Assembly: GCF_029624125.1 (NCBI RefSeq)
Contig: NZ_JARSBN010000004.1
Location: forward strand, 248,001 to 312,000
Direction: 5' to 3'
Length of the DNA stretch: 64,000 bases
Source: Winogradskyella marincola
GTDB lineage: Bacteria > Bacteroidota > Bacteroidia > Flavobacteriales > Flavobacteriaceae
Positions 31,391 through 34,271 of this stretch are shown here, piece after piece. Below the pieces are notes generated by a model. That model had not been told where the DNA came from. It worked only from the letters and a program-made list of their open reading frames with translations, and made no database searches. The first letter of the stretch is position 1. Each line of letters begins with the position of its first letter. The translations under genes and the position numbers were made by a program.

Positions 31391-31426
31391 ATCGTTTAGT
31401 GTATTATATTTACACAAATTTTGAAA

Positions 31427-31879
31427 ATGGAAACGTTAAAAGACTTTCTTCTAAATAAAGGCTACTCCAAGATAAAGCTGAAATTGACCAAAACAAATCA
31501 TTTTGAAATTAAAGCTACTATTAATGGAGTTAAAGGTCGCTTTATTTTAGACACTGGAGCTTCTAGCAGCTGCGTTGGTTTTGAGGCCATAGAACGCTTT
31601 AATCTTAAAGTAAAAGACTCTGAAATAAAAGCCGTTGGTGCTGGCGCTTCTAATATGACTACGCAGATTTCTAAATCCAACAATTTAAAAATTGGAAAAT
31701 GGAAGAAAAACAGAGTGGCTTTAATACTTTTTAATCTTTCTCACGTTAACACTGGACTCGTTAATCATAATGCAGATCCTATAGATGGTATTATTGGTGC
31801 AGATATTTTAAAGAAAGGAAAAGCTATTATTGACTACGACAAGAAATACCTTTACTTAAAGTTGAAAGATATTTCTTAA
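31427..31879 (+). CDS. retropepsin-like aspartic protease, single domain
   Basis: 150 residues from the ATG at 31427 (METLKDFLL); the frame also opens with a TTG 6 bp earlier. FILDTGASSSCVG (about 43-55) contains the D-T-G active-site triplet, and DGIIGADILKKGKAIIDY (about 124-141) matches the downstream hydrophobic-Gly motif of clan AA proteases. One D-T-G per chain means it would act as a homodimer. No signal peptide, so probably cytosolic. Divergent from tatD, 44 bp upstream of the response regulator. Substrate unknown. Confidence 0.85.
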   Translation: METLKDFLLNKGYSKIKLKLTKTNHFEIKATINGVKGRFILDTGASSSCVGFEAIERFNLKVKDSEIKAVGAGASNMTTQISKSNNLKIGKWKKNRVALILFNLSHVNTGLVNHNADPIDGIIGADILKKGKAIIDYDKKYLYLKLKDIS

Positions 31880-31922: not shown

Positions 31923-32549
31923 ATGGACCCTACCATTATAATAGCAGATGATCACCCTTTAGTACTAAAAGGGCTTCAAGATTTTTTACACGAAAAAGAA
32001 TACAATGTCCTTGCCAGTGCAAAAAATGGCAAAGAAGCTTTGGCATTAATAAAAGCTCATACTCCAGATATTGCTATTCTAGATATTAAAATGCCTTTTT
32101 TTACAGGTTTGCAAATTGCTGAAAAATGCAAAAAAGCCAATCTTAAAACAAAGATAGTACTCATTACTTTTGAAAAGGATGAGAAAATCTACACCGAAGC
32201 AAAATCTATAGGTGTTTATGGCTATGTATTAAAAGAGTTTGCTTTAGACGAAATTGAAAACTGTATTAACGCTGTTACAAAAGATCAGCCTTATTTTAGT
32301 CCAGAACTTTTAGCGTATATAGAAGTAGATAATGGTCCGGAAGCGTTAAACGATTTGACAAAAACGGAGCTAAAAATCTTAAAATTGATTGTTGAAAACA
32401 AGACTGCAAAAGAAATTGCAGAAGAATTACACGTTTCTCCGAGAACTGTTGAGAAACATAAAAGCAACATTATCAGAAAGTTAGATATAGAAAAAACACC
32501 TAATAGTCTATTAATTTGGGCAAAAGAGAACCAAAACTACATTTCTTGA
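31923..32549 (+). CDS. LuxR/NarL-type response regulator without an adjacent kinase
   Basis: 208 residues. The receiver domain has the acidic pair Asp9/Asp10, phospho-acceptor Asp54 (ILDIKMP), Thr82 and Lys104, so it should be phosphorylatable. The output domain, about 146-208, is a LuxR/GerE helix-turn-helix (LTKTELKILKLIVENKTAKEIAEELHVSPRTVEKHKSNI). No histidine kinase gene is in the window. Its own upstream region lacks the palindrome found twice just downstream (32553 and 32709). The stop codon ends 3 bp before the first palindrome, so the obvious hypothesis is that this protein binds those sites and activates the two short transcripts. Confidence 0.95.
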   Translation: MDPTIIIADDHPLVLKGLQDFLHEKEYNVLASAKNGKEALALIKAHTPDIAILDIKMPFFTGLQIAEKCKKANLKTKIVLITFEKDEKIYTEAKSIGVYGYVLKEFALDEIENCINAVTKDQPYFSPELLAYIEVDNGPEALNDLTKTELKILKLIVENKTAKEIAEELHVSPRTVEKHKSNIIRKLDIEKTPNSLLIWAKENQNYIS

Positions 32550-32552
32550 AAA

Positions 32553-32570
32553 ATACGTAAGGTTACGTAT
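32553..32570. promoter_or_regulatory. 18-bp palindromic operator, copy 1
   Basis: ATACGTAAGGTTACGTAT: two perfect 8-bp arms around GG. It lies 14 bp upstream of a weak -7-like element, the position expected for an activator that replaces the -33 contact. An identical copy is at 32709. I saw no other full copy in the window. Confidence 0.75.
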
Positions 32571-32596
32571 ATTATGGTATTATATTATTTCGGAAA

Positions 32597-32691
32597 TTTA
32601 CACTGTTATTAATTAAGGGTTAATAACGAGCTATTAATTAGTTCTTAGGGGATTATTTGAGCCTTGGAGTTTTCCAAGGCTCTTTTTTTTT
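32597..32691 (+). ncRNA. predicted small RNA 1 downstream of the response regulator
   Basis: Predicted transcript of about 95 nt; the start is estimated as 5 nt after a degenerate -7 element (TTATTTCG, 32585-32592). It has a 5' hairpin GTTATTAA / TTAATAAC (32605-32627, 8 bp, loop TTAAGGG), a 30-nt AU-rich linker, and a perfect 10-bp terminator GAGCCTTGGA / TCCAAGGCTC with nine T (32659-32691). No convincing reading frame. The promoter region matches that of RNA 2 without gaps. Confidence 0.55.
32659..32691 (+). terminator. terminator of small RNA 1
   Basis: Perfect stem GAGCCTTGGA / TCCAAGGCTC with loop GTTT, then nine T. Confidence 0.9.
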
Positions 32692-32708
32692 CAAAAAAAA
32701 ATCAAAAA

Positions 32709-32726
32709 ATACGTAAGGTTACGTAT
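32709..32726. promoter_or_regulatory. 18-bp palindromic operator, copy 2
   Basis: Identical to the 32553 palindrome and 156 bp further on. The next 49 bp match those after copy 1 at about 35 positions without a gap (counted by eye), so the unit looks duplicated. Confidence 0.75.
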
Positions 32727-32752
32727 AGTATTGTATTACAATTATTTGCAAT

Positions 32753-32831
32753 TTTACAGTGCTATTAATCAAAAGCCTGAGGCTATATTCTCAAAAGCTC
32801 TGAGTAGTACGCAAACACTCAGGGCTTTTTT
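32753..32831 (+). ncRNA. predicted small RNA 2 or attenuated leader
   Basis: Begins after a degenerate -7 element ATTATTTG (32741-32748). It contains two similar segments, AAAAGCCTGAG (32771) and AAAAGCTCTGAG (32793), both able to pair with CTCAGGGCTTTT at 32818. The 3' stem AGCTCTGAGT / ACTCAGGGCT is followed by TTTTTT. If read through, the transcript reaches the 37-codon ORF at 32846, so it could be a free sRNA or a leader with an attenuator. Confidence 0.5.
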
Positions 32832-32845
32832 AAAATTGAAATATC

Positions 32846-32959
32846 ATGGACACAATGAAAGATAATACCTCCAAAAGAGATAAAATATTTATGATTCTAT
32901 TAATTGTTAGCTCTGTAATAGTCATCTCAGCGAATATAGCTGTTAATTTTTTTAGTTAA
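32846..32959 (+). CDS. 37-residue single-helix membrane peptide
   Basis: Short ORF MDTMKDNTSKRDKIFMILLI... ending ANIAVNFFS. A charged N-terminus of about 14 residues (KDNTSKRDK) is followed by one hydrophobic helix of about 19 residues (FMILLIVSSVIVISANIAV). It begins 15 bp after the T-tract of the RNA 2 terminator and is followed by a strong terminator. The positive-inside pattern suggests insertion with the N-terminus in the cytoplasm. Expression is unproven; it resembles small regulatory or toxin-like peptides only in size and topology. Confidence 0.5.
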   Translation: MDTMKDNTSKRDKIFMILLIVSSVIVISANIAVNFFS

Positions 32960-32991
32960 TTTTAGTTAGTTACCTATGTAGTTAGGAGCAA

Positions 32992-33030
32992 AAAAAAAGC
33001 GCAATTAATATATAATTGCGCTTTTTTGCT
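32992..33030. terminator. bidirectional terminator between the small ORF and odhB
   Basis: AAAAGCGCAATTA and TAATTGCGCTTTT flank a short AT loop, with A-run and T-run on either side. Confidence 0.9.
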
Positions 33031-33050
33031 TTATAAAAAACTCGAGGTAA

Positions 33051-34271
33051 TTACATTTCCAAAGCTTTTTTAGGATTGTTATCCATTAATAATTCTTCAG
33101 GATTTTCTAACGCTTCTTTAACAGCAACTAAGAAACCTACAGATTCTCTACCATCAATAATTCTATGATCATAAGATAAAGCAACGTACATCATTGGATG
33201 AATTTCAACCTTACCATCTACAGCTATTGGTCTTTCTATAATATTATGCATACCAAGAATACCACTCTGTGGAGGGTTTATAATTGGTGTAGATAACATA
33301 CTACCAAATACACCACCATTAGAAATGGTAAATGTACCACCTGTCATTTCATCTACCGTAATCTGACCATCTCTGGCTCTTAAGGCTAAGCGTTTTACTT
33401 CTGCTTCAACACCTCTAAAGGTTAAGTTTTCAGCATTTCTTATCACCGGAACCATAAGTCCTTTTGGTCCAGATACTGCAATACTTACATCTACAAAATC
33501 GTAAGAAATCATTTCTTTACCATCTATCATAGAATTAACTGCAGGATATAATTTTAATGCTCTTACTACTGCCAAAGTAAAGAAACTCATAAAACCAAGA
33601 CCTACTCCATGTTTTGCCTTAAACTCTTCTTTGTATTGCTTACGTAATTCAAAAATTGGAGTCATGTTAACTTCATTAAAAGTCGTTAACATTGCTGTTG
33701 TATTCTTAGCTTCAACTAAACGCTCTGCTACTTTACGACGTAACATAGACATTTTGCTACGAGAAGTTCCTCTGTTTCCACCTGTTGGAGTTCCCATTGA
33801 TGGTACAGCATTTACTGCATCATCTTTAGTTATACGACCATCTTTGCCAGTACCTTTTATTGCATTGGCATCTAGTCCTCTTTCATCAATAATCTTTTTA
33901 GCAGCAGGACTTGGTGTACCTGTAGCATAAGTTTTAGATTCAGTAGCAGCAGGTTTTGCTTCTTCCTTTTTAGGTGCTTCTTCTTTCTTTTCTTCTTTAG
34001 AAGAAGTTACACTCTCACTACCTTCTGGCTTTGCAGCACTTGTATCTATTAAACATACAACTTGCCCAACAGCAACAGCATCGCCTTCTTCAGCCTTTAA
34101 AGTAATTGTACCACTGGCTTCTGCTGGTAATTCTAATGTTGCCTTGTCACTATCAACCTCAGCTATAGCTTGGTCTTTTTCTACATAATCACCATCTTCT
34201 ACTAACCATTCTGCAATTTCTACCTCAGTAATTGATTCGCCTGGTGAAGGCACTTTCATTTCTAAAATCAT
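33051..34271 (-). CDS. odhB: 2-oxoglutarate dehydrogenase E2, dihydrolipoyl succinyltransferase
   Basis: 406 residues. Lipoyl domain at 1-77 with the lipoylated Lys43 in [13 protein letters not shown]. An acidic Pro/Ala-rich linker (about 80-112) leads to a peripheral subunit-binding domain ([24 protein letters not shown], about 117-150) and a catalytic domain ending with [18 protein letters not shown], which holds the active-site His and Asp. Core of the TCA-cycle complex that makes succinyl-CoA. 32 bp downstream of sucA on the same strand. Confidence 0.96.

Follow-up and report, generated by a model that had tools for sequence, protein, structure and literature searches.

The closest described counterparts of the locus analysed here are the UvrY/GacA regulators of gammaproteobacteria with their small RNAs CsrB, CsrC, RsmY, and RsmZ. 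According to the accessible part of its description, UvrY binds an 18-nt palindrome and has csrB and csrC as its strongest targets (PMC4682653). A second point of reference is BrxR, a repressor of a defence island, which, according to the available text of its report, recognizes inverted repeats and regulates genes of phage defence (PMC9122601). For RNAs, the nearest comparisons are Rfp18 of Flavobacterium psychrophilum and FopS (Rfam RF04319).

The window, meaning the whole stretch of 64,000 nucleotides that was analysed (G000:C19:248001-312000, where G000 is its own genome), comes from Winogradskyella marincola. An original prediction made from the letters of this stretch had proposed that an orphan LuxR-type response regulator activates two tandem, duplicated small RNAs and possibly a membrane peptide. 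As far as the accessible accounts of UvrY/GacA go, the resemblance lies in the LuxR/FixJ-type response regulator and in the 18-nt palindromic site before sibling small RNA genes, the RNAs being predicted in our case. Unlike in those systems, the RNA adjoins the regulator gene, the RNA sequence is different, there are many further sites, and the operator stands near -43.5 instead of near -183. Membership in the Csr/Rsm system was rejected because CsrA (PF02599) exceeded the cut-off in none of 40 genomes, with one weak match in G051, whereas 3 of 14 control genomes were over the cut-off. With BrxR-type regulators, as described in the text available, the locus shares a transcription factor, inverted repeats, and phage-defence genes; BrxR is a WYL-domain repressor sitting in its island, whereas here a conserved response regulator is encoded on the chromosome and its sites are scattered. 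RNA1 resembles Rfp18 as a conserved flavobacterial small RNA, compared by partial description only (PMC9723704), and FopS, by its Rfam description, as a paralogous small-RNA family of the same phylum; the score was 16.1 bits against the FopS gathering score of 56. No description of the palindrome, the module, or the regulon was found in the titles and abstract openings searched, in which few subscription journals were covered; this points to a regulator-RNA module that appears undescribed in that literature.

We consider it probable, on comparative grounds, that the locus is a hard-wired regulator-RNA module. Helix-operator co-variation, promoter geometry, RNA conservation, and peptide coding are the parts of this explanation that emerge from sequence comparison. 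We infer phosphorylation, activation, transcription, and the mode of RNA action as follows. The response regulator, probably phosphorylated, would bind TACGTA-N4-TACGTA centred near -43.5 and would activate promoters that have a -7 box without a strong upstream element. At the home locus, RNA1 would be produced and terminated at about 87 nt, carrying a near-invariant core, and the second transcript would either be a sibling of RNA1 or serve a membrane micropeptide as its leader. RNA1 might act in trans, at a guess via its UUCUUAGGG segment. In other lineages of the family, where the core stands behind further LuxR-type regulators that each have a palindrome of their own, one RNA would receive different signals. 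The operator-promoter of Winogradskyella would also precede variable genes at scattered places, several of which are anti-phage, and accessory defence genes would likely be switched by the regulator.

Layout of the locus and the regulator gene

Table 1. Features of the locus, in coordinates of the window; operators, starts, and RNA ends are predicted.
Feature	Position	Strand	Basis
Gene for a retropepsin-like aspartyl protease, immediately before the regulator	31421-31879	+	Pfam PF13650, E 3.5e-14
Response regulator, receiver and LuxR-type HTH, 208 aa	31923-32549	+	Pfam Response_reg, GerE
I184 codon in the recognition helix; co-varies with operator inner bases	32472-32474	+	Sequence position and co-variation
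Putative operator 1, palindrome	32553-32570	.	Exact copy and co-variation
-7-like box of RNA1, GAAATTTA, predicted start 32605	32593-32600	+	Box geometry
RNA1, predicted, about 87 nt including terminator T-run	32605-32691	+	Conservation, covariance model, folding; both ends predicted
Conserved core GCTATTAATTAGTTCTTAGGG, 21 nt, inside RNA1	32630-32650	+	Alignment and family-wide search
RNA1 terminator	32659-32691	+	Compensatory change in 9/11 pairs
Putative operator 2, palindrome	32709-32726	.	Exact copy
Unit 2 -7-like box, CAATTTTA, start predicted at 32761	32749-32756	+	Box geometry
RNA2, putative second small RNA or peptide leader	32761-32832	+	Terminator-like hairpin 32793-32829, compensatory change
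Single-helix membrane peptide ORF, 37 codons	32846-32959	+	ORF; dN/dS
Inverted repeat between peptide and convergent odhB; reads as shared terminator	32990-33027	.	By eye
odhB, convergent to the peptide ORF	33051-34271	-	Neighbour gene

The 18-bp palindrome ATACGTAAGGTTACGTAT occurs in two exact copies whose starts are 156 bp apart, the first lying 3 bp past the regulator stop codon, as had been predicted (Table 1). With up to three mismatches allowed and both strands read, it matches just these two places in the window, with 0.04 matches expected. The stretches behind the two palindromes, said to align over 49 bp without a gap at about 35 identities, have exactly 35, a count that none of 20000 random 49-bp window pairs reached. 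The two boxes proposed as degenerate -7 elements are indeed equidistant from their respective palindromes, and both approximately match the flavobacterial sigma-A -7 box TAnnTTTG. According to the part of the source available, the sigma-A boxes of F. psychrophilum lie at -12 to -5 (PMC9723704). Taking the -7 box as ending at -5 gives the two starts in Table 1 and places the palindrome centres near -43.5; the first of these starts coincides with the beginning of the conserved RNA1 block. The 37-codon membrane ORF after unit 2 is present, and Pfam confirmed both domains of the LuxR-type response regulator, in which the receiver motifs ADDHP, ILDIKMP, LITF, and VLKEF are all found.

A close match to the regulator (at least 63% identity) exists in 32 of 37 genus genomes, G007, G020, G021, G024, and G027 having no close orthologue. 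Named relatives of the locus belong mostly to Winogradskyella and also to Xanthomarina, Psychroserpens, and Meridianimaribacter. We compared 73 regulator rows, the unique ones among 84 loci (L001-L084, with L085-L087 excluded), and a protease match was obtained by tblastn at every one of them. The order after the stop codon is operator, RNA1, operator, RNA2, and peptide in most Winogradskyella loci; several deeper lineages have a single unit behind the regulator, and the Psychroserpens-type loci inspected have approximately 3 to 5 units, counted partly by eye. Two of the 73 rows, L081 and L083, are without a recognized operator. The genome of the window also encodes a second response regulator (L096, G000:C21:189500-202000), 41% identical and located behind a 674-aa ORF; TACGTA palindromes (AGCC, GACC) follow this regulator and also stand ahead of two very long ORFs of 1271 and 1150 aa.

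Co-variation of the recognition helix with linked and unlinked operators

The recognition helix reads RTVEKHKSNI-X, where X is residue 184. The residue and the first recognized operator agree in all 71 operator-bearing rows with zero exceptions, 48 combining I or V at 184 with an operator other than G..C and 23 combining R, H, or N with G..C, under classes that were set after inspecting the rows and afterwards put to the test with the tree and the unlinked sites. On a tree of the neighbour genes and the receiver, from which the DNA-binding domain was left out, each trait changed 9 times; the well-supported branches yielded 7 independent pairs, every one of which pointed in the same direction (p 0.0156); a tree of the receiver only retained 2 well-supported pairs. 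The correspondence of residue 184 to the inner operator bases resembles a natural switch of specificity, replayed several times.

Second operators include exceptions, such as that of L034, which is GTTC despite I184. The genome that carries this locus (G010, with L003 and L034) combines I184 and a first operator AGGT with four G..C sites among its nine unlinked ones, and has perhaps been caught in mid-switch. The second paralogue of the window's genome has I at the matching place, yet GACC and AGCC sites lie beside it, which speaks against a simple helix-operator code. Furthermore, joint recombination could explain part of the co-variation in cis, because the helix and operator 1 adjoin. Unlinked operators that follow the regulator class bear on this objection.

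Such operators were counted in 31 of the 37 genus genomes (G007, which has no close orthologue, G027, which has no sites, and G008, G020, G021, and G024 were left out). They agree with the regulator class in 26 genomes and disagree in two, G010 and G012, the latter assigned to the R class from an operator spacing identical to the one in L068 and not from its own regulator sequence; three genomes cannot say. The ten R-class genomes contain 39 G..C, 1 A..T, and 16 other sites. The twenty-one I-class genomes contain 55 A..T, 5 G..C, and 23 other sites, after exclusion of nine sites lying no more than about 5 kb from the second paralogue (eight G..C and one other) and with two sites about 0.5 kb from a paralogue in G010 and G017 (both of the other kind) kept; a site of G001, 4 kb from the regulator, was treated as linked. 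A Fisher test of these counts disregards relatedness and was set aside. An exact match of the inner two bases to the genome's own operator was found at 28/51 sites for owners of AAGT, 14/32 for AGGT, 25/43 for GTTC, and 7/13 for GATC. The predicted link between regulator and palindrome is supported by comparison both in cis and at unlinked sites, and the regulator very probably binds the palindrome.

Unlinked operators, their genes, and promoter geometry

Unlinked palindromes dispersed over the genome had been named beforehand as a finding that would speak against the link to the regulator. They do occur genome-wide, including in four of the five genomes that have no close orthologue (2-4 palindromes each in G007, G020, G021, and G024; none in G027), and palindromes were also found in 2 of 23 genomes from other families of the order. 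However, we read the unlinked sites as a regulon because most of them have the promoter geometry in common and belong to the spacer class of the regulator itself. Of 49 unlinked sites, which were hand-picked mostly for the genome's own spacer class (8/10 in G017, 6/9 in G033, 5/5 in G036, and 8/8 in G030), 32 have the full box TAnnTT[TC][GA] on one side at a distance of 22 or 23 nt, and any other adjacent offset pair tested has at most 2 full boxes.

The 44 ORFs downstream of these operators form 42 clusters, and the 49 genes on the opposite side form 38, with common housekeeping neighbours; at one such spot, beside a ferredoxin gene, an exact palindrome is no more than about 150 bp away from the stop codon in 6 of the 30 loci examined. 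A Pfam scan covering 30 of the 44 downstream ORFs identified SIR2_2 with STALD, MmeI restriction-modification, AIPR, KAP_NTPase, FRG, HD-CE with HATPase, and HEPN_Cthe2314, among others, and left 12 of the 30 without any family and some others with sub-cut-off matches alone. PADLOC gave 90 families for the 44 downstream ORFs against 17 for 49 flanking ORFs, counting models and not proteins; type IIG restriction, PDC-M11A, ThsA, and CBASS cyclase lead among the downstream matches listed. Ten downstream ORFs run singly in PADLOC yielded no match for eight and a weak match for two. Defence genes are thus enriched in kind, and a defence-rich regulon in Winogradskyella is likely by sequence comparison.

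We regard it as improbable that the unlinked palindromes are ends or attachment sites of mobile cassettes unrelated to the regulator. Their inner bases follow the regulator of the genome in which they lie and most of the selected sites have the -7 box at a fixed distance, neither of which suits that alternative, even though it would account for the common spots beside housekeeping genes with differing cargo, for the two palindromes inside an integron-like array, for the attC-like hairpins seen by eye in several leaders, and for the palindromes kept by orthologue-free genomes.

Integron-like arrays, in which short ORFs lie between similar repeats of about 150 bp, were observed in L161 (G002:C6), L174 (G005), and L173 (G000:C10); the two operators in question belong to the L161 array, and the L174 array is near a tyrosine-recombinase match. 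The leaders of unlinked sites such as L091, L110, and L172 contain, by eye, the attC-like hairpin GATATAARTC-ATTGAAAC-GGAYTYATATC followed by GTTNNNNNAATT, positioned between promoter and ORF. The integrase model TIGR02249 exceeded its cut-off in 0 of 40 genomes, and all 14 controls likewise matched below it; the best matches skip model positions ~180-238, and array-like repeats were seen. Many of the best tyrosine-recombinase matches in several genomes lie near contig ends, as repeat arrays would cause.

At the linked sites, the box NAnnTTT[AG] begins 23 nt after the palindrome in 126 of 136 units and 22 nt after it in 2, and is not there in 8. A palindrome centre near -43.5, a fixed distance to the box, and a weak upstream promoter element make up the activator-like geometry that had been anticipated, from which we infer that the regulator activates rather than represses. 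Repression at the palindrome would also fit the overlap of operator and promoter; we consider it unlikely, the position of the centre and the poor upstream element being better suited to activation.

The conserved RNA core and the micropeptide

Covariance analysis, proposed earlier as a check of the RNAs, bore out RNA1. An alignment of 29 RNA1 sequences has 24 invariant positions, 19 of which are within the core, and the helices other than the covarying terminator hardly vary. The resulting covariance model retrieved 53 of 249 Flavobacteriaceae genomes at E <=0.001; among 30 loci retrieved with it, the core was present in all 30 and the regulator in 28. With up to one mismatch, 89 of 397 Flavobacteriaceae genomes, belonging to 61 of 237 genera, carry the core, a reversed-core control giving 0 among the rows listed, and most genomes of the family have no core at that threshold. 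Across the order, up to two mismatches being allowed, 3 of 148 genomes contained it, all inside the family, and 0 of 127 genomes from other families. It was absent from the genus with code g147, sampled ten times, and the exact 22-base core (22-mer) had no copy in IMG/VR. Comparison with Rfam, likewise proposed, gave only a tRNA in the window, and in 32540-33050 no family came near its gathering score. RNA1 is likely to be transcribed. Its core is a concrete, widespread candidate RNA, together with a regulator and an operator, in a family whose small-RNA control is little known. The idea of a sponge acting by an AGGG loop is weakly supported, AGGG being open in a predicted hairpin loop in only 24 of 136 units.

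The original prediction understated how far the module spreads, because the core also occurs behind other LuxR-type regulators and the operator occurs genome-wide. In many of the fetched regions, the core stands behind PAS-LuxR proteins; four of these were scanned and matched GerE and PAS_3, one PAS_3 match falling just below the cut-off. Their palindrome is ATACTCAA(N)TTGAGTAT, followed by a TTTAC box. In a non-random sample of fifty loci with 56 core copies, 32 copies pair the response regulator with TACGTA, 14 the PAS-LuxR protein with TACTCAA, 2 (in one genome) a third protein with TTACGG, and 1 the response regulator with TACTCAA, and 7 have no regulator match in range. Twenty of the regions, including 3 regulator loci, had been fetched mostly as apparent second copies. 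For the third protein, whose two copies are in L251, no Pfam match exceeded the cut-off, and that it is a regulator is a guess.

Each LuxR-type regulator might own a private copy of the RNA directly behind its gene and under a private palindrome, and promoters of acquired anti-phage genes might adopt the regulator's operator and follow changes in its recognition helix. We advance only tentatively the reading that one near-invariant RNA is the shared output of several regulators with private copies and that the Winogradskyella regulator commands acquired anti-phage genes; the palindromes in orthologue-free genomes slightly lowered our confidence in it. If true, it would describe a host-encoded on-switch for laterally acquired immunity, and an operator common to scattered acquired defence genes would be a direct answer to how bacteria coordinate them.

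Of the two tandem, duplicated small RNAs originally proposed, RNA1 stands as a conserved RNA and RNA2 as a putative one. RNA2 has its beginning in common with RNA1, and its hairpin covaries, with compensatory change in 8 of 11 pairs. Both units were also expected to end in their own terminator, and both stretches do fold (z -5.15 for 32603-32692 and z -3.29 for 32757-32832), but the hairpin of unit 2 has no following U-run in at least five relatives (L013, L015, L016, L047, and L052). The hairpin therefore need not be a terminator there, and RNA2 may be the leader of the peptide instead of a second small RNA.

The peptide was picked in 65 of the 73 loci, and its dN/dS is 0.20 over 45 Winogradskyella rows, in which one known mis-pick (L049) was kept. 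This value indicates purifying selection and supports a coding peptide. That RNA1 is just a leader or spacer ending in a terminator, with the peptide as the real product, seems distinctly unlikely, since RNA1 owns a covarying terminator, the core is present in L069, L072, L080, and L082 where no peptide was picked, and it recurs behind other regulators, notwithstanding the membrane micropeptide that follows in many lineages and the often leader-like RNA2. In the deep relatives L076, L078, and L081, where peptides are present and no core was seen, two tandem membrane micropeptides stand behind the regulator.
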